Shown: in pieces, positions 9,824-20,267 of the stretch
Position numbering within the stretch: position 1 is the stretch's first letter
How the letters are laid out: every line of letters begins with the position of its first letter
Assembly (NCBI GenBank): GCA_040877935.1
Contig: JBBDNB010000040.1
Span: 1-64,000, forward strand
Length of the DNA: 64,000 nt
Source of the DNA: Chitinophagales bacterium
GTDB taxonomy: Bacteria; Bacteroidota; Bacteroidia; Chitinophagales; CAIOSU01
Direction of reading: 5' to 3'
Made by a program: the position numbers and the translations under genes
The notes under the pieces: generated by a model
Seen by the model: only the letters and a program-made list of their open reading frames with translations
Database searches by the model: none
Told to the model about the DNA's origin: nothing

Positions 9824-9981
9824 TCCTGCAACGTAGGGTATTTGGGAGAGATTAACTGTCCACCAAAAACAAAACTTACTTGAAAGCTAGGCCATTGAAA
9901 TTTACCGCTTTCCGCCCAATTTTTTATATGCCATATTGTGTGTCTGTAAAGCGTGACTTTATATCGCAAAGTTTCTATCAT
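9748..9981 (-). CDS. Short ORF overlapping the hsdR stop, probably a chimeric remnant
   Basis: A 77-codon frame whose ATG shares one base with the hsdR stop (TAATG), an arrangement that permits translational coupling. Its first 50 or so codons match nothing I know. Its last 25 codons are an out-of-frame reading of the permease fragment. The most economical view is a truncated gene from the R-M operon running into the island boundary. It may be untranslated. Confidence 0.25.
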
Positions 9982-12680
9982 TATGCAACATTCTCTTTAT
10001 ACAAATGCTCCTGAAACTCTATAAAAAGTCGGCTGATGTTTGCCACGTCTCCCAATATTTCTTTTGCGTCTTCCAATGATTGATACTTGTTTGTCAGCAG
10101 GATTGGTAATTTCTCCTGGTCGAGTTCGTCCACGCCTGCTTCAACGTATTTGCTCAAGACGAATGCGATAAATTCTCTTTGTTTGTCATTTAGCAATGCA
10201 AAAATGGTCGCTTCGGCTGCTTTGGCTCGCGCTTCTCTTGTCATGGCGATATAGTCGCCATTGAAAACGTATTCCAATACATCATACAAGTCGCTTTTTT
10301 CCATATCTACCAACTTTTGTAAAGTCAGTAAATCGTCTTTGGGAAAGCCTGCTGCATCTAAGTTTTCCAACAAAGTTTTTCGGGTCAGCGGATTGCTCCA
10401 TAGTTTGCGCAATTCTTCTTCGTCTTTGAACAGTTTGGGTAGTTCTCCAAATAGGTTATTCAAAAATTCTTCGGCTGAAATGGGTTTGCCGTCTGCACTC
10501 CAAAAGGAAGTGGAAACCATGTGCTTGATTTCTCTTTCTTTTCCATTTCGCAGTTTGATTTTAATTTTCTTCTTACGCTCCTTTGGTTCTGATGGCTCTT
10601 TTGATTCCTTCGGTTGGTACTCTTCTTTAGGTTCCATTACACCGCTTGGCTCAGGCTCTAATGGTTCTCCGTCCCATTCCGGGTCGTTGAAATGCTTGTA
10701 GGCATCTACAAAGTCGTAAATGGTGAAAAACTCTTTGCCGTCAAATAAGCGTGTGCCACGGCCAACGATTTGTTTAAATTCAATCATGGAATTGACAGGA
10801 CGAAGCAATACGATATTTCGAATGTTCCGTGCATCAACTCCCGTTGAGAGTTTTTGCGAAGTGGTCAGAATAGTTGGCAATGTTTTTTCATTGTCCTGAA
10901 ATTCACGCAACAGTCTTTCGCCTTCTTCTCCATCATTAGCGGTTACACGAACGCAATAAAAAGGGTCCTTACTATCTGAATATTGATTTACCAAATCCCG
11001 AAGCAATGCTGCGTGTGCTTGATTCGCTCCGAAAATGATAGTCTTTTCGTTTTGATTGGCTTCATCTAAGAATATCTTAACACGAGCGGTTTCACGTTCT
11101 ACAATTTCAATGCTGCGGTTAAAGTCTTTTTCTTCATAGAGCTTACCTTCTTCAATTTCGCCTTCCACAATGGTATCGTCCGAAGTGTAGCGGTAATCGT
11201 CCAAGGTCGTTTTGATGCGTTTTACTTTGAAAGGCGTTAAGAAACCATCATTGATGCCTTCTTTTAGCGAATAGATGTAAACAGGCTCGCCAAAGTATTT
11301 GTAGGTGTCCACATTATCATCTCGTTTGGGTGTAGCGGTTAAACCCAATTGCACTGCCGGACTGAAATACTCCAAAATATCCCGCCAATTGCTTTCGTCA
11401 TTTGCTCCGCCACGGTGGCACTCGTCAATGATGATAAAATCAAAATAGTCTTTTGGATATTCGCCAAAGTATGGTTCGGCAAGCTCACCAACCTTTTGCT
11501 CAGATTTATTCTTAGAAAGTCTTTTGAGTAATTCAATATCGCCTTTGATTAAAGCAATTTTCTTTGCACGGCTCCATTTTTGAATTTGCTTTTCTCTTTT
11601 AAAGGCTTCATCAATTCTCTCAAATGTTTCGTAGTACACCAATTTGATAGGTAAATTCTTTGCTGTAAAATTAGCCCCTTCACCGTTTTTATGTTGTTCA
11701 ATTCTTAGAGCTAATTCTTTAGTACTACCTGTATAAAAACTTCCATCGGCACATTGTAGAATATACATATATCCATAAGCTTCTTCTTTAGTTTCAATTT
11801 CAGGAAAATCAATCTCTTCATCTTTGAAAGCGGTGGGTGAGCTTGTCGAACCCCCGCTCATAAAGGTTTGGAAAATGGTAAAGAAAATACTGCCGTTGGT
11901 GGGTACTCTTCCTTTTTTCTTAATCTCGCTGGGGTTTATTCGAACCAAGGCATCTTCGGGAAAAGCGGAAAAGGAATTGAAAGCCTGATTGGCTAAAATA
12001 TTTCTGTCTGCCAAAAACAAAATTCTTGGTCTGCGACTACCGTCTCGTTGTAAATTCCATCTAGTTTGAAAAAGCTTCCAGGCAATTTGAAAAGCAATGG
12101 CCGTTTTTCCTGTTCCTGTGGCAAGGGTGAGCAAAATGCGTTCACTGCCTTTTGCCAATGCTTCTAAAGTATTATTGACTGCTATTTCCTGATAATAACG
12201 AAGCTGCCAAGTGCCGCTTTTGTCTTCAAAAGGAACATTGGCAAACTTTTCTCTCCATGCTTCGACAAGCTCAGCGCCAGGTTCGTTTGTTTTTGGAAAT
12301 GCTTTGTTCCAAAGTTCTTCGGGACTTAGAAAGTCTGTAACCAAAGCTTCTTCGCCTGTTTTCATGCAGATTTGGTAAATGGCTTTTCCGTTGCTGCTGT
12401 AGGTGGTTTCCAATTGCAGTTTCTCGGCATATTGCTTCGCTTGCATCACGCCTTCGCCCACTTCCAATTCATCACTTTTTGCTTCTATTACGGCCAACTT
12501 GATGCCTTTATGCACCAATATGTAATCTGCAATAATCTTTCTGCCACGACCACCACCCGACTGGATTTGACCATCCGTAATCTGGTATTCACGAAGCACT
12601 TTAGAGCCTTCTGCCACGCCCCAACCGCAAGCCTTAAGCTTGGGGTCAATTAGTTCTGCTCTTGTTTCTGCTTCGTTCAT
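9981..12680 (-). CDS. hsdR: Type I restriction enzyme R subunit with an inserted GIY-YIG domain
   Basis: HsdR is the motor and nuclease subunit of type I restriction. Positions here are counted from the longer frame opening at 12713. The N-terminal PD-(D/E)xK nuclease shows D63 and 'IEAK' at 76-79. The SF2 helicase shows Walker A ATGTGKT (198-204), DECH (430-433), TATPKR (459-464) and a later 'QIVGRGTRL'. Between motif Ia and DECH, where relatives have a short loop, lies a complete GIY-YIG domain (about 313-402) with 'YMYI' and 'YTGS' half-motifs, bounded by inverted repeats at bases 11473-11489 and 11836-11852. Removing residues 288-414 leaves a normal-sized HsdR. I choose ATG 12678-12680 ('MNEAETRAEL') because it starts one base after the fic stop and is the usual HsdR beginning. 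The 12713 start would overlap fic. Confidence 0.95.
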   Translation of the reverse strand: MNEAETRAELIDPKLKACGWGVAEGSKVLREYQITDGQIQSGGGRGRKIIADYILVHKGIKLAVIEAKSDELEVGEGVMQAKQYAEKLQLETTYSSNGKAIYQICMKTGEEALVTDFLSPEELWNKAFPKTNEPGAELVEAWREKFANVPFEDKSGTWQLRYYQEIAVNNTLEALAKGSERILLTLATGTGKTAIAFQIAWKLFQTRWNLQRDGSRRPRILFLADRNILANQAFNSFSAFPEDALVRINPSEIKKKGRVPTNGSIFFTIFQTFMSGGSTSSPTAFKDEEIDFPEIETKEEAYGYMYILQCADGSFYTGSTKELALRIEQHKNGEGANFTAKNLPIKLVYYETFERIDEAFKREKQIQKWSRAKKIALIKGDIELLKRLSKNKSEQKVGELAEPYFGEYPKDYFDFIIIDECHRGGANDESNWRDILEYFSPAVQLGLTATPKRDDNVDTYKYFGEPVYIYSLKEGINDGFLTPFKVKRIKTTLDDYRYTSDDTIVEGEIEEGKLYEEKDFNRSIEIVERETARVKIFLDEANQNEKTIIFGANQAHAALLRDLVNQYSDSKDPFYCVRVTANDGEEGERLLREFQDNEKTLPTILTTSQKLSTGVDARNIRNIVLLRPVNSMIEFKQIVGRGTRLFDGKEFFTIYDFVDAYKHFNDPEWDGEPLEPEPSGVMEPKEEYQPKESKEPSEPKERKKKIKIKLRNGKEREIKHMVSTSFWSADGKPISAEEFLNNLFGELPKLFKDEEELRKLWSNPLTRKTLLENLDAAGFPKDDLLTLQKLVDMEKSDLYDVLEYVFNGDYIAMTREARAKAAEATIFALLNDKQREFIAFVLSKYVEAGVDELDQEKLPILLTNKYQSLEDAKEILGDVANISRLFIEFQEHLYKENVA
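11473..11852 (-). mobile_element. GIY-YIG domain insertion with terminal inverted repeats, in frame within hsdR
   Basis: The 380-base segment has GGTTCGGCAAGCTCACC at its left end and GGTGAGCTTGTCGAACC at its right end. These are inverted copies matching at 16 of 17 positions. Between them is a UPF0213/YhbQ-like GIY-YIG domain. Its features are 'YMYILQCADGSFYTGST', an Arg in 'LRIEQH' and a Glu in 'FKREKQI', followed by a basic 'KWSRAKK' helix. The frame is open throughout and continuous with the helicase. There are no intein splicing motifs. Calling it a mobile element is inference from the domain, the inverted ends and the position. Confidence 0.7.
12259..12275. repeat. Palindrome-family repeat in hsdR
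   Basis: GCTTCGACAAGCTCAGC shares the TTCGACAAGCTCA core with the ends of the GIY-YIG insertion and with the hsdS and hsdM copies. It encodes 'GAELVEA' in hsdR. Confidence 0.65.
12648..12680 (-). repeat. hsdR start region, copy 1 (functional start)
   Basis: This 33-base stretch carries the first 11 codons of hsdR. It matches 14316-14348 at 30 of 33 positions, and its last 23 bases match 15018-15040 at 22 of 23. The other two copies are not attached to an hsdR gene. Confidence 0.8.
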
Positions 12681-12681
12681 A

Positions 12682-13170
12682 TTAAAATAGATCTTTGTAG
12701 AATTCGACACCAATATTTAATTGCTCTTCATCAGGATTTACCTGGCTCAAAGCATTAATGATTTTAAGCTTTAGCTGCTCATTATAATCTACTTCATTAA
12801 TTATCGAATATATAACTTCAAATAACAAGTCCTTATCAATGAAATTATCTGCAACTGTAACAGCAATATTTTCCATTTCTATGATGAATTTATCTACAAA
12901 AGCATCTAAACCATTAACCTCCAAAAAAAATGCCCCCATAGCGATAGACGTTCTTTTATTCCCATCATTAAAAGCATGGAACTTATTAAATGAAAACACA
13001 ATGTGATTTAGCTTTTCTTCAAAAGTTGGATAGTAATCATCGTTCTGTATATGGGTTAACGGACTCTCTATATTACCATAATCTTTTATGCCAGCGCGGC
13101 CTCCTGATATATCAATGATTTTATCATGAATTCTGATAGCATATTCAGCTGTAAAGTAATTGAAGTCCAT
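12682..13170 (-). CDS. Fic/Doc family protein
   Basis: A 162-residue protein with the Fic core motif HAFNDGNKRT at residues 65-74, which fits HxFx(D/E)(G/A)N(K/G)R. Fic enzymes transfer AMP from ATP to target proteins, whereas Doc toxins phosphorylate EF-Tu. The length and the KRT ending lean toward the Doc-like branch. It follows the HTH protein gene with a 2-base gap and ends one base before the hsdR start, so the three are one transcript. The pair 'HTH protein plus Fic' lies between two copies of the hsdR start region, which suggests it entered the R-M operon as a unit. No inhibitory (S/T)xxxE(G/N) helix is obvious in it. The neighbour may provide control. Confidence 0.88.
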   Translation of the reverse strand: MDFNYFTAEYAIRIHDKIIDISGGRAGIKDYGNIESPLTHIQNDDYYPTFEEKLNHIVFSFNKFHAFNDGNKRTSIAMGAFFLEVNGLDAFVDKFIIEMENIAVTVADNFIDKDLLFEVIYSIINEVDYNEQLKLKIINALSQVNPDEEQLNIGVEFYKDLF

Positions 13171-13172
13171 GC

Positions 13173-14258
13173 CTATCTATCTTTTAAGCGTTTAAAAACT
13201 TCCTTGTTGTCTTCCAGCCGCTTTTCTAAATCCATGCTACGTTCCCCCAGAAATTTATCATAATCATCAGGACTTACTTCATTAATGTAGTCTTTCAATT
13301 TCTCGTGTAAAGCTTCTCTAAAAACCAAATCACGGCTGGCCATTAGGCTTCTTGCTTTTTCCCGCAAAGGAATTAAGGTTGACTCTGTTAAATCTTCATA
13401 TTTTCTAAACAAAATATGAGCTTCTGATAGAGATATTTTAGTCCCCTTCTCCTCAAATTCATTCTTTAGAAAATTTGCATATCCATTTTCATATCCGGCA
13501 ATTAAATCGAGAACTTCTGAGTACATTGTACTACGCACACTTTCTTTTGAATTCAATTTTAAAATCTGTCTGTACTCTTTGGCATTCTCTTTAAATATAC
13601 TTTTGTAAATCTTATCGGTTAATTGTCCATATTTAAATTTATTTTCCACTATGTAATAATCTAAAGCATTGGTAAACTCTTGCCTGTAGTTATATTCACG
13701 GATTGCACTTGGCAGAAACTCTTCTTCTCTTTGGTTGATGTATTTTGTTTTACCTCCTATTTTTTTGTTCAAAACATCAATAACTATATCCAGTATAGCT
13801 GAGCGTAACTTTTGAGCTTTCTCTGAAGCAGTTAATAGCATCCCCACATTTAAAAATGCTTTGTAAGTAAACACCGATAATTGAGGTGCTTTTAACAAGC
13901 TATCTAGTTCACCATCATACAATTGGATGATGTCTCCGACATGCATGTCGGAGACATCCGTCTTTTCCTTGGCGATCCGCAAAAAATCAGCAATACCCTC
14001 TTTAAATTGACGAAGTTTGTTTCCAGTATATATTTCATAACCACTTTGCTCCAATTCGGCCTTATTACTTTCTACAATCCGCTCAATGGTTCTTATATCT
14101 ACTTCAAAATATGAAGCCAACTGCTGACGAGTAAACCGATATTTTCCATCGAATTTAATCCCGTAAAAACCTACTTGTTCATAGACCTCCTGAATGGCAA
14201 GGTTATTATTTAGAATATTCTTTCGATCAATACTGGAATTTGTTAAATCTTTACTCAT
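13173..14258 (-). CDS. Helix-turn-helix protein paired with Fic (possible antitoxin)
   Basis: The 361-residue soluble protein has an N-terminal helix-turn-helix region, with 'YRFTRQQLASYFEVDIRTIERIV' at about residues 40-62. A long helical C-terminal part ends in a charged tail. I recognise the type as a DNA-binding protein commonly encoded directly upstream of Fic/Doc genes in Bacteroidota R-M operons. An antitoxin or regulator role is inference from that pairing and the 2-base spacing to fic. Residues 101-110 are encoded by a perfect 30-bp palindrome at 13929-13958, which probably inserted in frame. The start ATG at 14256-14258 lies 22 bases downstream of a 22-codon hsdR-like mini-ORF. Confidence 0.65.
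   Translation of the reverse strand: MSKDLTNSSIDRKNILNNNLAIQEVYEQVGFYGIKFDGKYRFTRQQLASYFEVDIRTIERIVESNKAELEQSGYEIYTGNKLRQFKEGIADFLRIAKEKTDVSDMHVGDIIQLYDGELDSLLKAPQLSVFTYKAFLNVGMLLTASEKAQKLRSAILDIVIDVLNKKIGGKTKYINQREEEFLPSAIREYNYRQEFTNALDYYIVENKFKYGQLTDKIYKSIFKENAKEYRQILKLNSKESVRSTMYSEVLDLIAGYENGYANFLKNEFEEKGTKISLSEAHILFRKYEDLTESTLIPLREKARSLMASRDLVFREALHEKLKDYINEVSPDDYDKFLGERSMDLEKRLEDNKEVFKRLKDR
13929..13958. repeat. Perfect 30-bp palindrome in the HTH gene
   Basis: GATGTCTCCGACATG is followed directly by its exact reverse complement, with no loop. It encodes the self-mirrored peptide 'DVSDMHVGDI'. A loop-free 15+15 palindrome inside a coding region is unlikely by chance and resembles other short in-frame repeats in this operon. 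Confidence 0.9.
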
Positions 14259-14429: not shown

Positions 14430-15008
14430 TTACTTTTTCTTCTTTCTTACTTCTATTCTCGCTTTTGTCATTCGTTCACGTAAACCGCCTTCTTTTAGGA
14501 AAGCGGCTTCCAATTGCTTTATCTGCTGTTTTAGCAGATAAGTAGTAATTGTTATTAAAGTTATCATAGCATTGGCACAAATCTCTGGATTTTCATGCTC
14601 AATGGCTTTTTTAAATGTTTCGTAAGTTGGTTTGGGAGTGCTTTTGTTAAGCTCACGCATGCGGGCTACCAAACGGTGGCCTTTTTCCCAGATGGGCAAC
14701 TTTTTTGTTCTTAGAAAATCTTCATAATCTATGAGCAGTTCTTCCAAACTGGCACGTGCTACATTGGTGAGTTTGATTTCTGTTGCTTTCGATGTGCCGG
14801 AGGCCATGCTGGCTTCTGCTATGTTTTGCTTACCACTGCGTGCTGCCTGCACCATTTGCCCGACCGTGCGGTCGTACTTATGAAAAAAACGATTGGTAAA
14901 ATATACCGTGCCATCATAGATGATCTCCGCCTTCTGATAACTGAACAGATTGCGATAACCACCATGGATGGGGATAAAACCTTCGGTATTTTTATCTTTA
15001 TCGCTCAT
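14430..15008 (-). CDS. Four-helix bundle (S23-like) suffix-domain protein
   Basis: The 192-residue helical protein contains 'RTVGQMVQAARSGKQNIAEAS', 'TSKATEIKLTNVARASLEELLIDYEDFL' and a basic C-terminus. This is the signature of four-helix bundle proteins related to the 23S-rRNA intervening-sequence proteins, in the longer 'suffix domain' form. Members frequently occur inside type I R-M operons and near diversity-generating elements. Their biochemical role is unknown, and nucleic-acid binding is suggested by the basic tail 'RIEVRKKKK'. Its ATG overlaps the stop of a 10-codon hsdR-like leader (TAATG at 15006-15010), so it may be translationally coupled to that leader. It is bracketed by hsdR-start copies 2 and 3. 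Confidence 0.82.
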   Translation of the reverse strand: MSDKDKNTEGFIPIHGGYRNLFSYQKAEIIYDGTVYFTNRFFHKYDRTVGQMVQAARSGKQNIAEASMASGTSKATEIKLTNVARASLEELLIDYEDFLRTKKLPIWEKGHRLVARMRELNKSTPKPTYETFKKAIEHENPEICANAMITLITITTYLLKQQIKQLEAAFLKEGGLRERMTKARIEVRKKKK

Positions 15009-15096: not shown

Positions 15097-15939
15097 TTAA
15101 TCTCCTTGATCGTGCCGTTCCATTTGCTTTTTTATTTCTATTGCAAAATTTTCGGCCTGGTCTTCTGTAACCACCTCAACCCCTAAGTTGCTGTCTGTAG
15201 ATTTAAGATACTCATGGATAAAACCCATTAACTCCTTATGCCTAGGATTTATAGAAGTAAGAAAAGAAATATGCAGTGGTTCGTTTAATTGTTTGAGTGC
15301 CTGGATTTTTCCTGCCCATTTATACACCTTCTCTTTAATGCTGTCTTTTTTCTTTAACTCAAAAGACAATGGTTCATAACTGTGCCATATTTCATTTTTC
15401 CAGGACTTATCAAATGACAAAATATCATTTGGAACAGAAACTTCATGTGTGCTTAATTTCGACTCTATACCATATTTTTCAAAATATTGTTTGTATTTTT
15501 TTTTCCAAACTTCATCATCACTTAATCGTGTTTTATCTTCATTTCCCAAATAATATTTTTCAACTACTTGCGAAAACAAACCTGAAAGAGCAGCATCCAG
15601 ATCAATATCTAGCCCTAATTTGCATTCGGACATTCTTATGGCATTATTGTCATTATTTAAAACGCCATTGGTTATAGATTCAATCTGGTCTGGCAGACTA
15701 AACAATTCTTGAAGCTTAGCTTTATCAGCATTAATTTTTTGTTCTAAATAATTCAAAAGCCTAATAACCCACCGCCCATTTGCTTCAGGAAACATTTGGG
15801 TTATTCTATGATATTTGCGAATTGTCTTGCATGCAAGAAACTGATTTTCTTTGCTATATAAAATCACACCAACATTTACAAACTCACCCGTAAAGTGGTC
15901 ATGCACATATCGTATAAGCTGATATTGATACTTTTTCAT
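15097..15939 (-). CDS. DUF3037 family protein, partner of the HipA-like kinase
   Basis: The 280-residue protein opens with 'YQLIRYVHDHFTGEFVNVGVILY', the hallmark N-terminal block of DUF3037. Its function is unknown. Its ATG overlaps the TGA of the HipA-like kinase gene (ATGA, 15936-15939), so the two are translationally coupled, and such pairs recur in many genomes. The remainder is predicted mixed alpha/beta without membrane segments. In this operon it follows hsdS and HipA and precedes the hsdR-start copies. A role in defence or as an antitoxin-like partner is inference from context only. Confidence 0.8.
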   Translation of the reverse strand: MKKYQYQLIRYVHDHFTGEFVNVGVILYSKENQFLACKTIRKYHRITQMFPEANGRWVIRLLNYLEQKINADKAKLQELFSLPDQIESITNGVLNNDNNAIRMSECKLGLDIDLDAALSGLFSQVVEKYYLGNEDKTRLSDDEVWKKKYKQYFEKYGIESKLSTHEVSVPNDILSFDKSWKNEIWHSYEPLSFELKKKDSIKEKVYKWAGKIQALKQLNEPLHISFLTSINPRHKELMGFIHEYLKSTDSNLGVEVVTEDQAENFAIEIKKQMERHDQGD

Positions 15940-16760
15940 GATGCAATTATTTTATTAAGTGAATTAACAAATTCTGATCTATGGTCAAGAGTAAGTTTAA
16001 GATAACTTATAACATATTTAATTTTATCCACTTGAAATTCTTTAGGTATTTTAGTGAAAACCTCATTCCAAAAATAGTCATTAAAACAATCCATCTTATC
16101 TACTTGTGCTGTAAAATCAATTTGTTCCTCTTTTAATCTTTTGTAGAAAAAGTGCTTTTTATATAATTCTGATTCAGCAGAAGATAAAACCCATGGAGTT
16201 TTACTTCTTAAAAAAGGAAGTTGATGTATGAATGAGAACGCCAATTCGTGATCATATACGAATAACTCTTCTCCATTAGTTCCAACATTGGGTTTTTGAT
16301 GTCCTCTATCAATGTTTTGAATAAACAAATCAAAAGCAAACAATAGTTTAGCTTGCTCTAACATTGTGTCATTAAGCTTAAATCCAATTTGTGGTATTTG
16401 AGTAATACCAGAATTGTAACGTGTGCCAAAATTAAACCCTAAGCTTTGACTTGCCGCCTTGTATCCATCTCGCCCCAATAAAGTACTGACAAAATCATCT
16501 GAAATATTAACTACTACAGGTTCTGCTGCAGGAAGCCCAATTTCAATTGCCATCCAAGCTCCTAAAAATTCAAATGCCGAACTAACTGGGGTCATTCGGT
16601 TGTGTTTTTTGAATTTCACAACAAAGCGATCTCTTTCCCCTGTATCACTATCAACTCCCCATATAGCCATAGGTGCAGTTGTACCCGTTTCAAATAGATC
16701 GAATGAATTTAACGCCTCAACTACTGGTAAACGATATTTTTGATAGGTTAGTTTAGTCAT
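15936..16760 (-). CDS. HipA-like kinase domain protein
   Basis: A 274-residue HipA-type Ser/Thr kinase fold. The likely ATP-lysine is K49 ('FVVKFK'). The catalytic loop is 'FDLFIQNIDRGHQKPN' (143-158) with D151, R152 and N158. The metal-binding site is 'YDHE' (169-172). HipA kinases act as toxins by phosphorylating tRNA synthetases. This shorter stand-alone form belongs to the HipA_2-like group and lacks an HTH antitoxin neighbour. It overlaps hsdS by 4 bases upstream (16757-16760) and DUF3037 by 4 bases downstream, so all three are tightly coupled. The coupling to hsdS suggests expression is tied to the specificity subunit. Confidence 0.82.
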   Translation of the reverse strand: MTKLTYQKYRLPVVEALNSFDLFETGTTAPMAIWGVDSDTGERDRFVVKFKKHNRMTPVSSAFEFLGAWMAIEIGLPAAEPVVVNISDDFVSTLLGRDGYKAASQSLGFNFGTRYNSGITQIPQIGFKLNDTMLEQAKLLFAFDLFIQNIDRGHQKPNVGTNGEELFVYDHELAFSFIHQLPFLRSKTPWVLSSAESELYKKHFFYKRLKEEQIDFTAQVDKMDCFNDYFWNEVFTKIPKEFQVDKIKYVISYLKLTLDHRSEFVNSLNKIIAS

Positions 16761-17998
16761 GCTTTCAATGATTCTGTAGCCTTTTCAGTTTCCAACCCCG
16801 CCTGCCGTAAAGGCAACTCCCCCGCAAACGCCTTTTGCAAAATACTCTTTTTTAGCTCTTCCAAATCATCCATTTTCTTTTGATACACCGCTTCCAACTT
16901 TTGTGTTTCGGCTCGCAGAGTATCTAATTGGCGTACGATGGTTTGTTGTTCTTTAAGTGATGGAAATGCAAAATCAAACTCTAAAACTTGATTCATATTT
17001 GCTCTCGGCATTCTTGCTCCTGTCCAAGTTGCGTTTATCTTTTTAACTGTTGAACTAGCTATTAACCAATAGAATAGAAACTCTCTAAGTATTTCTTTTT
17101 GAACTTTTATGGGGAAAATTTCAGTAGAGCAATGACCTTCAAAGTCGGGTAACAGCACTTTATTTAAATAAGGTCGCAAACGCCCATAAAGAACGTGATG
17201 TTCATCAAAATGGAATGTTGAACTTTTTACTTCTTGAGGTTCTAAACTTCCTAAGAATTTTCCTGAATTTGATTCGATGTGTTCTAATCCAACATAAGGC
17301 AATCCTTTGTGAATGCTTTGATTCTTATCATATTCAGCAACTTCCCCCAACTTCTTCTCTTTCCATCCATCACTCTGTCCTTGCCTTGAGCGTGTCGAAG
17401 GGTCAAACACCCCCTGCAAATAGCTTTCAAAAAGTTCTTTCGCGTTTTTAAGGTTTTGTTCGGCATTGGCTTTTGCCTTGGCAATGGCGGCAAAGCACTC
17501 GTCTAAAATAGAAACAATGCGTTGTTGTTCGGGGAGGGCAGGGAGTGGGATTGGAATTGTTTTTAAAATTTTTACTGATGCTACATTTTTTATAGCAGCT
17601 CCTACAGTGTTCTTCTGAAGTTCTTTTGTAAATTGCGGACTATCCATCCAAAGTTTGAGATATTCAACATTAAGCTTTCCACTACAAGTAAGTTTAAGTA
17701 GAGCCTGATTAATTATGCCTTTCTTAATCCCTGCAGGAACTATAGCTACTTTACCCATTGTTCCTGAGCAGCTCATAATTAAGTCATTCGGTTTAAGTTC
17801 AAAGCGTTTCATCTCTTTAAACTTATTTTCATCTACAAAGTATCGTATTTCCGAAAACTGATTATAAATAGCATGTTGTTGCTCATAAACAGCATAACCT
17901 GACTTTTTAAAAATGCTTTTTTTCAAGCTACCACCGAAAGGACCTCGAACAAACCCACAGACATCTCCTAATTGCTTTATTTCCCAACCCTGCTTCAT
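16757..17998 (-). CDS. hsdS: Type I restriction enzyme S (specificity) subunit
   Basis: The 413-residue HsdS has two target-recognition domains. The first runs from 'GWEIKQLGDVCGF' to about residue 145, followed by the conserved helix 'LPEQQRIVSILDECFAAI'. The second runs from 'GWKEKKLGEVAEY' (about 212) to about 350, followed by the helix 'LKEQQTIVRQLDTLRAETQKLEAVYQKKMDDLEELKKSILQKAFAGEL'. HsdS sets the bipartite DNA target for methylation and cleavage. Between the two halves 'DPSTRSRQGQ' is encoded by a repeat of the TTCGACA-GCTCA family (17384-17402), sitting in the linker where it is tolerated. The ATG overlaps the stop of the original rhuM reading frame (ATGA), which shows that rhuM and hsdS were once coupled. 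Confidence 0.95.
   Translation of the reverse strand: MKQGWEIKQLGDVCGFVRGPFGGSLKKSIFKKSGYAVYEQQHAIYNQFSEIRYFVDENKFKEMKRFELKPNDLIMSCSGTMGKVAIVPAGIKKGIINQALLKLTCSGKLNVEYLKLWMDSPQFTKELQKNTVGAAIKNVASVKILKTIPIPLPALPEQQRIVSILDECFAAIAKAKANAEQNLKNAKELFESYLQGVFDPSTRSRQGQSDGWKEKKLGEVAEYDKNQSIHKGLPYVGLEHIESNSGKFLGSLEPQEVKSSTFHFDEHHVLYGRLRPYLNKVLLPDFEGHCSTEIFPIKVQKEILREFLFYWLIASSTVKKINATWTGARMPRANMNQVLEFDFAFPSLKEQQTIVRQLDTLRAETQKLEAVYQKKMDDLEELKKSILQKAFAGELPLRQAGLETEKATESLKA
17384..17402. repeat. Palindrome-family repeat in hsdS linker
   Basis: CCTTGAGCGTGTCGAAGGG is a variant of the CCCTGAGCCTGTCGAAGGG element also found in hsdM. It encodes 'PSTRSRQ' in the linker between the two recognition domains. 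Confidence 0.65.
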
Positions 17999-18689
17999 AC
18001 CAATTCCTTTATTTCGTTCATAATACTGCCCACCGATTTTGCTTCCATTTTAGAAAATGTACCTGCACTCCTTTTTTCTTTTTGGCCAAATGGGTCAAAG
18101 TACTTTCGTTTATGTAATTATCAATCAGCACAATTCTTTCTTTGGCCGAACGAATAATCTTGGATGCCAACTCATAGGCATCAAACACTTGTCCGTCAAA
18201 AAATACACCTTGTGTAGGGATTTGGTGGGTACTGATTTGTAGGCCTATTTGATCTACTTTATTTTTCAAACTTTCTACTTGGTCTTCAAAGCGGTTCATC
18301 CGGTTGTTAATGGCATAACCTTTTAATAAATAGTTTTTCAGAACCCGGGTTGCCCAAATACGGAATTGGGTTGCACGAACAGAATTTACTCTATAGCCTA
18401 CTGATAATACTGCATCAATGCTGTAATACTTTACTCTAATGCTCTGAGTTTTCCCTTTGATTGCCCCGTGTTGAGTGGTATGTTCCAAAATGGAACTAAC
18501 CACATTTTCGTCAAGTTCGCCCGACTTGAAAATATTGCCTAAATGCTTTGTAATTGCAGGGCGCTGGGTTCCAAACAAGTCGGCTATTTGTTGTTGTGTC
18601 AGCCAAATCGTTTCTGATTTTTCATCAATTCTTACCTCAATATGCTCGGCAAGTTCATCCGGGCGGTATAAAATGATTTCGTCTTTCAC
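17995..18689 (-). pseudogene. RhuM family gene with an internal deletion and frameshift
   Basis: The open frame 18018-18689 (223 residues) carries the RhuM N-terminus, with 'TIWLTQQQIADLFGTQRPAITKHLGNIF' (28-55) and 'YYSIDAVLSVGYRVNSVRATQFRIWATRVL' (87-116), and the start of the C-terminal domain up to 'TLTHLAKKKKGVQV'. It then runs into an unrelated 15-residue tail. In another frame, 17995-18057 encodes 'FSKMEAKSVGSIMNEIKELV' and stops at TGA overlapping the hsdS ATG. That matches the expected RhuM C-terminal end. The middle, roughly 80 codons by family length, is missing and the frame has shifted. RhuM proteins are common in R-M islands and have no established function. The truncated product may still be made from ATG 18689. 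Confidence 0.8.
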
Positions 18690-18749: not shown

Positions 18750-20267
18750 CTACTTGCCAATTATCAATTGTAAATTATCCATTATCAAAGCACTTTCTTC
18801 ATCCAAAGCTTTCATCTCTTCCAAAATTTCCTGCGGTTGGCGAAGTGGATCAGCTTCTGGCGTATTTGGGTTTTTTACGCTCAGGTCAAAGGTGCTTTGG
18901 TCAACATCCTTGATGTTTACCTTCCAGGATTTTTCGCTATCCCCCTTCGACAAGCTCAGGGCAAGAAACTCTTCCAAATCCTTTTCATTAAGTGGATTGG
19001 TCTTGCCCAAATTACGTCCCGGGTTCAACTGGTAAAACCAAACCTTTTGTGTAGGTTTTCCTTTTTCGAAAAACAGCACTACAGTTTTTACCCCTGCACC
19101 GGTAAAGGTCCCACCCGGTAAATCCAAGACAGTATGCAGATTGCAATTTTGCAATAATTCTTTTCGTAAAGCAATGCTCGCATTATCGGTATTGCTCAAA
19201 AAGGTATTTTTAATGACCACACCTGCCTTGCCGCCTGCTTTTAAAATTTTGATGAAGTGTTGCAAAAAAAGCGAAGCGGTTTCGCCTGTTTTAATCGGGA
19301 AGTTTTGTTGTACTTCGGCACGTTCCTTTCCACCAAAAGGTGGATTGGCCAGCACCACATCATAGCGGTCTTTTTCTTGTATGTCGGCCAGGTTTTCGGC
19401 AAGCGTGTTGGTGTGTATGATATTGGGTGCTTCCACACCGTGCAAAATCATGTTCATGATGCCAATGATGTACGCCAATGATTTTTTCTCCTTGCCGTAA
19501 AAGGTGCGTTTTTGCAAAGTTTCCCATTCCCTGGTAGAAAGGCCGGACCCTGAGCCTGTCGAAGGGCCGGATTTCAGATAGTCGAATGCTTCGCAAAGAA
19601 AGCCCGCAGAACCTGCTGCACCGTCATAAATTTTATCGCCAATTTTTGGTGCCACCACTTTTACAATGGTGGTAATAAGCGGTCGGGGTGTGTAGTATTC
19701 ACCACCGTTTCGCCCTGCATTGCCCATGTTTTTTATTTTGTCTTCATACAGATGGCTCATTTCGTGCTTCTCTGCATGAGTACGGAAACGCAATTCGTCA
19801 ATACGGTTGATTACTTCACGTAAGTTGTAGCCACTTTGGATGCGGTTTTTCAGTTCGCTGAAAATCTCGCCAATCTTGTATTCAATCGTGTCGGCATTCT
19901 CGGCAGAAAGTTTGAATTTTTTCAGGTAGGGAAACAATTTGCCGTTCACAAAGTCCAAAAGGTCGTCTCCTGTCAGAGCGTTGTGGTCTGGTTCGACAAG
20001 CTCACCATCCTTCATTCTCGTTCTTGCATTCGGCCCCTGAGCCTGTCGAAGGGGCATTGCCCAAACACTCCATTGGTATTCCTGGTCAATAATGGGCGTA
20101 TAGGTTTTTCCTGTGAGTTCGGCAGAAGTGGCACGGTCACGCTCCAAGTCGTCCAAATATTTCAGGAACAATACCCAAGAGGTCTGTTCGACATAATCCA
20201 ATTCACTTCCACAACCTGCGTCTTTGTGGAGTATGTCATCTATATTTTTAAAAGTCTGTTCAAACAT
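18750..20267 (-). CDS. hsdM: Type I restriction-modification methyltransferase (M) subunit
   Basis: The 505-residue N6-adenine methyltransferase has the HsdM helical N-terminus 'FKNIDDILHKDAGCGSELDYVEQTSWVLFLKYLDDLE'. The SAM site is 'DGAAGSAGF' (215-223) and the catalytic motif IV is NPPF (308-311). It methylates the target chosen by HsdS and protects host DNA. Three segments look inserted and are encoded by repeat copies: 71-93 'MPLRQAQGPNARTR..ELVEP', 233-244 'SGPSTGSGSGLS', and 435-442 'LALSLSKG'. All keep the frame and lie outside catalytic motifs. It is first in the minus-strand R-M operon, with a candidate promoter at 20308-20337. It is separated from rhuM by 60 bases. Confidence 0.95.
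   Translation of the reverse strand: MFEQTFKNIDDILHKDAGCGSELDYVEQTSWVLFLKYLDDLERDRATSAELTGKTYTPIIDQEYQWSVWAMPLRQAQGPNARTRMKDGELVEPDHNALTGDDLLDFVNGKLFPYLKKFKLSAENADTIEYKIGEIFSELKNRIQSGYNLREVINRIDELRFRTHAEKHEMSHLYEDKIKNMGNAGRNGGEYYTPRPLITTIVKVVAPKIGDKIYDGAAGSAGFLCEAFDYLKSGPSTGSGSGLSTREWETLQKRTFYGKEKKSLAYIIGIMNMILHGVEAPNIIHTNTLAENLADIQEKDRYDVVLANPPFGGKERAEVQQNFPIKTGETASLFLQHFIKILKAGGKAGVVIKNTFLSNTDNASIALRKELLQNCNLHTVLDLPGGTFTGAGVKTVVLFFEKGKPTQKVWFYQLNPGRNLGKTNPLNEKDLEEFLALSLSKGDSEKSWKVNIKDVDQSTFDLSVKNPNTPEADPLRQPQEILEEMKALDEESALIMDNLQLIIGK
18943..18961. repeat. Palindrome-family repeat in hsdM (C-terminal copy)
   Basis: CCCTTCGACAAGCTCAGGG is the cleanest copy of the family. It reads in frame in hsdM as 'ALSLSKG'. 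Confidence 0.75.
19548..19566. repeat. Palindrome-family repeat in hsdM (central copy)
   Basis: CCCTGAGCCTGTCGAAGGG reads in hsdM as part of 'GPSTGSGS', just after the SAM-binding motif. Confidence 0.75.
19990..20055. repeat. Two adjacent palindrome-family repeats in hsdM (N-terminal copies)
   Basis: GGTTCGACAAGCTCACC (19990-20006) is the same subtype as the ends of the GIY-YIG insertion. Twenty-six bases on, 20033-20055 is the CCCTGAGCCTGTCGAAGGG subtype with extended GCCCC/GGGGC arms. The two copies are in opposite orientation with a short linker, like a miniature of the hsdR insertion without the nuclease. Confidence 0.75.

Follow-up and report, generated by a model that had tools for sequence, protein, structure and literature searches.

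A probable HipAD/PDC-M66-type kinase and DUF3037 pair carried behind hsdS in a type I restriction-modification operon of Bacteroidota

The window considered here, a stretch of 64,000 nucleotides from a member of the Chitinophagales, carries on its minus strand a type I restriction-modification (R-M) operon in the order hsdM, RhuM, hsdS, kinase, DUF3037, four-helix gene, PDC-M59A, Fic (PDC-M59B) and hsdR; all genes, domains and overlaps of the window given below lie on that strand. The three genes of the host system are all present, namely the methyltransferase gene hsdM (18750..20267; N6_Mtase 4.5e-61, HsdM_N 4e-7), the specificity subunit gene hsdS (16757..17998; Methylase_S 6.9e-31), and the restriction subunit gene hsdR, which includes a GIY-YIG insert (9981..12713; ResIII 2.2e-36, EcoEI_R_C 4.1e-23, GIY-YIG 7.2e-16). 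A RhuM-family gene (PDC-S05; 18018..18689; profile and PADLOC matches), one of the other cargo genes of the operon, separates hsdM from hsdS. Directly behind hsdS lie a gene for a HipA-like kinase of 274 aa (PDC-M66A/HipA_2; 15936..16760), the predicted toxin on the basis of Pfam, PADLOC, and predicted fold, and a gene for a DUF3037 protein of 280 aa (PDC-M66B; 15097..15939), the predicted antitoxin from Pfam and PADLOC. The four-base overlaps noted in a preliminary description of the locus are confirmed, and both read ATGA: one joins the hsdS stop to the kinase start (16757..16760) and the other the kinase stop to the DUF3037 start (15936..15939). The same description placed the pair between hsdS and hsdR, which is accurate with respect to hsdS, but hsdR follows only after three further genes. 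These encode a four-helix-bundle protein (23S rRNA IVP-like, TIGR04258 suffix; 14430..15008; profile matches), PDC-M59A (13173..14258; PADLOC 3.7e-96), and a Fic/Doc protein (PDC-M59B; 12682..13170; Pfam Fic 3.2e-12, TIGR01550 1.4e-13, PADLOC 6.8e-35), all classed as other cargo. The pair thus shares the operon with further embedded elements and has no contact with hsdR.

Several further features of the operon deserve mention in their own right. PDC-M59A and the Fic/Doc gene (12682-14258) form a second embedded candidate pair, relatives of which are also found near hsdM-RhuM-hsdS in locus L042, and the RhuM-family gene recurs between hsdM and hsdS in loci L055, L152, L156, and L174. The GIY-YIG domain of hsdR (11481-11822; ~110 residues, about 298-411) lies in frame directly before the DECH motif, is absent from 11 of 11 aligned relatives, and has two weaker relatives elsewhere in the same genome; one GIY-YIG insertion in another HsdR has been reported (PMC1564403). 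The repeat motif CTTCGACAAGCTCAG (at most one mismatch) is present in four copies, at positions 12260, 18945, 19550, and 20037 of the window, where none would be expected, and all four lie inside hsdM or hsdR coding sequence, with reading frames open across them. A search with a Bacteroidota-type promoter pattern gave seven matches against 5.5 expected, none of them upstream of hsdM, and was uninformative.

HipA_2 is the only Pfam model matched by the kinase at E 0.1 (E 5.8e-14), and PADLOC PDC-M66A is matched at 9.9e-93 over protein residues 1-272 and model positions 1-269 of 270. The predicted structure (mean pLDDT 95.2) resembles CtkA, PI4K-II, HipA, and HipT with Z-scores of 11.3-14.5, the best match being CtkA (Z 14.5, 3.7 Å, 218 residues), with HipA at Z 12.2 and HipT at Z 11.6. 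All 63 aligned kinases share the eight residues K49, E64, D144, N149, D151, R152, N158, and D170; four of them belong to the catalytic loop N149-x-D151-R152...N158 (16287..16316), and D170 (16251..16253) is by position the DFG-like aspartate. Judged from its sequence, the kinase active site is intact. The fold and the catalytic residues K49, D151, N158, and D170 are shared with the kinases of HipBA and HipBST. Here, however, no HTH antitoxin gene (hipB) or HipS-like gene was recognized beside the kinase gene, the neighbors being hsdS and DUF3037, and the toxin gene comes first; the HipBA domains HipA_C and Couple_hipA were not matched by the kinase at the Pfam threshold given above. Membership in HipBA/HipBST was rejected because domains and gene order differ.

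The partner protein contains a DUF3037 domain in residues 6-126 (15562..15924; Pfam E 5.5e-20), shows a single other Pfam match at E 1 that is weak and unrelated, and matches PADLOC PDC-M66B at 1.3e-99 (protein 1-277, model 1-279 of 281). It models well, with a pLDDT of 93.8 and a pTM of 0.66, but because of the latter value the domain arrangement is unsure. For the C-terminal domain (residues 139-280; 15100..15525), VIA-align comparison gives weak evidence of a restriction-endonuclease-like fold: the top row is BstEII (rmsd 3.9, 131 residues) at Z 8.3, a level that is common for models without true relatives, and the first nine rows (BstEII, Cdn1, Can2, VC1899, Bax1, FdxN excision factor, and Ecl18kI; Z 8.3-5.9), which we take to be PD-(D/E)XK nucleases, are followed by small GTPases at Z 5.8. 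Foldseek gave no match to this domain in the PDB at E 0.001, no nuclease was matched by a profile search against PDB sequences or by Pfam, and RE_LlaJI was matched at 0.0024 in one whole protein out of 63 DUF3037 relatives. All 63 of these proteins have N182, K204, and G210. The canonical D and (D/E)xK were not found on strands 2-3, the (D/E)xK lysine being absent from strand 3; the column two places past the conserved E189 is hydrophobic in 63 of 63, and K204 is located on the helix that follows. As modeled, the C-terminal half is possibly a DNA-binding relic of a restriction-endonuclease-like fold. Searches of PDB sequences with the single kinase and partner proteins returned nothing useful, and a library of viral model structures yielded four matches with E no higher than 0.001, all lacking informative names.

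Both proteins of the window match PDC-M66, a PADLOC candidate system, from end to end, and the arrangement is the same two-gene pair with the partner directly downstream; PDC-M66 is a candidate label, and the match carries no mechanism. The PADLOC candidate set reportedly derives from a 2024 preprint by Payne et al., and Brenes and Laub are said to have published the HipAD paper in 2025. Published experiments address the function of two relatives. A pair beside Retron-Sda1 in Sphingobacterium daejeonense is reported to defend against phage Bas51; the retron is dispensable for this defense, deletion of the kinase ends it, and deletion of DUF3037 is toxic (PMC12548924). That pair has the same two domains, comes from Bacteroidota, and is named PDC-M66 by its authors, although it is likened to the window pair by description and not by sequence; it sits in a retron operon where the window pair sits in an R-M operon, and a likeness is reported between the C-terminus of its DUF3037 protein and a type III-A1 retron DNA-binding protein (PMC12548924). 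The second relative, DS-6 of Escherichia coli, since renamed HipAD, combines a HipA-family kinase with DUF3037; a catalytic mutant of the kinase loses defense, and an AlphaFold3 complex of the kinase, the DUF3037 protein, and DNA predicts that DS-6B contacts DNA (PMC13092281). Kinase and DUF3037 lie side by side in HipAD as in the window, a likeness of domains and not of sequence; DS-6B carries Pfam DUF1829, whereas the window partner gave no match to a DUF1829 model. By its domains and PADLOC profiles, the window pair belongs to an already known kind, the PDC-M66/HipAD type.

Relatives were collected by a scan of GTDB genomes, from which the best 80 of 100 loci encoding a long-form relative were taken, so that the sample is biased towards the window; five of the 80 apparently repeat contigs sampled separately, and all counts use only the 80. 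The earlier claim that HipA-like/DUF3037 pairs recur as neighbors held up well, since the kinase lies directly upstream of DUF3037 in 75 of these best 80, with a four-base overlap (ATGA, GTGA, or TTGA) in 70 of the 75 loci having both genes, a frequency beyond chance; contig ends are among the five loci where no kinase was detected. Relatives of the long-form pair occur on two plasmids and on contigs classed as viral, and phages or prophages thus seem to carry the pair; the overlap is kept in 11 of 18 viral-contig loci (L132-L141 and L145). Searches of E. coli genomes and phages for one of the tested relatives gave no match. Across the phylum, DUF3037 is present in 87 of the 395 genomes drawn, mostly as a form of ~131 aa from which, judged by length, residues 139-280 are missing. 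This short form is paired with a kinase in 30 of 30 loci, and in none of the 20 loci fetched did profiles of hsdM, hsdS, or hsdR match within ~10 kb. By comparison, 17 of 53 long-form loci with enough flank carry hsdM upstream, against 0 of 20 for the short form (Fisher p 0.004, to be read as a guide only, given the relatedness of the loci and the use of long-form loci to build the profiles). Vertical inheritance of the short-form pairs is not claimed, shared neighbors being found in at most 4 of 20 loci.

Association with type I R-M was assessed in the 61 long-form loci with readable upstream context: 26 of the 80 carry hsdM or hsdS upstream in the same orientation, no farther than 6.5 kb away; 35 have an upstream stretch of 6 kb or more that contains neither gene; and the other 19 were not classed. 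Of 37 loci picked from the 80 because their flanks are long, 14 show hsdM upstream on the strand of the pair, against 0.036 expected from the 59 hsdM genes in those genomes. The R-M label changes nine times on the tree (made by a quick method and having some long branches) compared with 15-25 times in 300 shuffles, which points to inheritance of the association within clades, with several gains or losses; the loci concerned come from Bacteroidota, Verrucomicrobia and their relatives, Nitrospira, and Proteobacteria. Wherever hsdS was seen (24 of the 26 R-M loci, the remaining two having only a long hsdM), the pair lies behind it, with hsdR downstream of the pair in eight, upstream in nine, and not seen in seven. 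In 12 of the 24 the kinase lies within 35 bp of hsdS; in the other 12 the gap is 76 bp to 5.2 kb, often with genes in between. The exact ATGA overlap with hsdS (-4) seen in the window recurs in L057 alone among these 24. From these counts, the coupling of kinase to DUF3037 is conserved and that to hsdS is not. Three loci from relatives of Verrucomicrobia have a gene of ~400-430 codons between hsdS and the kinase (L077, 7993-9186; L086, 7782-9044; L128, 7800-9092), and the copy in L077 matches nothing in Pfam or PADLOC.

Enrichment of such pairs next to defense genes is seen for type I R-M, by the 14 of 37 loci just mentioned, and is not clear outside it. In 50 loci without R-M, 110 near proteins (of 246 eligible by size and distance) and 110 far proteins (of 154) were compared with PADLOC; 93 models were matched near the pair and 74 far from it, those listed each by single proteins, and among the top 25 families listed there was no clear excess of PADLOC families near the pair relative to distant genes.

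Whether the pair has evolved together with its host operon was examined in nine core loci, comprising the window and eight others whose hsdM is 66-89% identical to that of the window. Identities are correlated between kinase and DUF3037 (rho 0.83), between hsdM and hsdR (0.96), and between hsdM and hsdS (0.72), compared with values of 0.09 for hsdM and kinase and 0.23 (p 0.09) for hsdM and DUF3037; when two loci of a different R-M type are added, the last of these rises to 0.73 (p 0.0025). The reverse survey began from the 45 of 395 genomes of the phylum whose hsdM match had an E of 1e-80 or lower, of which 27 operons were fetched and 23 were readable to hsdR. None of these 23 related operons contains the pair, which is carried by the window and by G171 (L032); the 23 are not independent, because many are from one family. 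Their cargo site is empty in some cases (e.g., L151, L171, and L173) and elsewhere holds a peptidase M78 gene matching RmrA together with a PIN/DUF4411 gene (L159; the peptidase also in L164), Schlafen AlbA_2 proteins (L166, L168, and L174), or PDC-M41A (L170), according to a scan of ten proteins, eight from related operons and two from pair-bearing R-M loci. A published parallel is DarTG2 of an E. coli type I R-M operon, likewise a toxin-antitoxin pair between hsdS and hsdR and at the same operon place, for which a potential recombination hotspot has been suggested; its toxin and antitoxin are unrelated to the window pair and it has an RptR repressor (PMC12255303). The arrangement in the window fits this published embedding of defense genes in R-M operons. 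An incomplete literature search found no description of a HipA-like/DUF3037 pair inside an R-M operon, though one may be published. Taken together, the unconserved hsdS overlap, the 35 loci without R-M, the other cargo, and the uncorrelated divergence support swappable cargo and do not support a guard of the R-M enzyme.

Since relatives defend against phage and loss of their DUF3037 protein is toxic, abortive toxin-antitoxin defense is the likeliest function, and we consider it quite probable that the window pair is a HipAD/PDC-M66-type defense of this kind, riding as interchangeable cargo behind hsdS. By analogy, the HipA-like kinase would be a toxin kept inactive by the DUF3037 protein. Infection would upset the kinase-DUF3037 complex, and the freed kinase would phosphorylate a host target, such that growth stops and phage yield falls. 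Transcription of the pair may be supplied by the Bacteroidota type I R-M operon, assuming co-transcription, and the ATGA overlap may fix the ratio of toxin to antitoxin. Activity of the window copy, as well as toxicity upon loss of its DUF3037 protein, would follow the pattern of the relatives. Against this explanation stand the likening of the tested relatives by description instead of sequence, the DUF1829 domain of DS-6B, for which the window partner has no match, the lack of a clear PADLOC-family excess outside R-M loci among the matches listed, and the small independence test, in which nine loci were compared and two added loci of another R-M type alter the hsdM-DUF3037 correlation. The preliminary description had proposed an abortive system tied to the R-M genes; its abortive part is likely correct, given the intact active site and the published tests on relatives, and the tie to R-M is not supported.

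A second reading, compatible with that of cargo-borne abortive defense, concerns the trigger, and we regard it as possible but tentative: the C-terminal half of the antitoxin would bind phage or cut DNA and so free the kinase, in place of antitoxin decay. The restriction-endonuclease-like character of the first nine VIA-align rows, the three invariant residues, the presence of the long form and not the 131-aa form in R-M operons, and the predicted DNA contact of DS-6B (PMC13092281) all point in this direction. The Z level of the best row, the empty Foldseek, PDB-profile, and Pfam nuclease searches, the single RE_LlaJI match, the missing strand 3 lysine, and the pTM of 0.66 argue against it. 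A stronger version, in which long-form DUF3037 would sense DNA through a restriction-endonuclease-like domain that lacks the canonical catalytic motif, the kinase would be freed by foreign or cut DNA, and repeated placement behind hsdS across several phyla would reflect a working partnership with type I restriction and not merely an insertion site, appears improbable.

Still less credible is a guard or back-up of the R-M enzyme, in which coupling to hsdS or binding of Hsd proteins would sense loss or inhibition of R-M and lead to killing or arrest. It would account for the constant position behind hsdS in two operon orders, the short gaps in half of the loci, the R-M enrichment, and the exact overlap in the window and L057. 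Against the preliminary proposal that the pair may sense R-M production through hsdS stand the lack of conservation of that overlap, the 35 of 61 readable loci without an R-M operon, and the absence of covariation with hsdM in the nine close loci (host hsdM being 34-89% identical to that of the window across the loci compared); other cargo occupies the same site in related operons, and the pair tested next to Retron-Sda1 protects in a construct whose description includes no Hsd genes (PMC12548924). A guard role is therefore unlikely, the tie finding no support in distribution, overlap, divergence, or related operons, and what survives of it is the R-M enrichment and the placement behind hsdS. 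That this is an ordinary kinase pair with a cellular non-defense role, landed in the operon by chance, is likewise very doubtful: many pairs do occur alone, with housekeeping families among their neighbors, and the short-form HipA_2/DUF3037 pair is common in the phylum with no R-M near the 20 loci fetched, but the long form is strongly enriched behind hsdS, travels on viral contigs and two plasmids, matches PDC-M66, and has relatives that are tested defense systems (PMC12548924; PMC13092281).

The interpretation of the pair as cargo-borne abortive defense would make a tested kind of kinase toxin-antitoxin defense one of the cargoes that, in several phyla, repeatedly sit right after hsdS in type I R-M operons. 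The comparison of loci indicates that this cargo is exchanged independently of the host operon. The DUF3037 proteins fall into two classes, a 131-aa form without R-M nearby and a long form whose additional domain may read DNA; this split marks out where in the antitoxin a trigger of the system might be sought.
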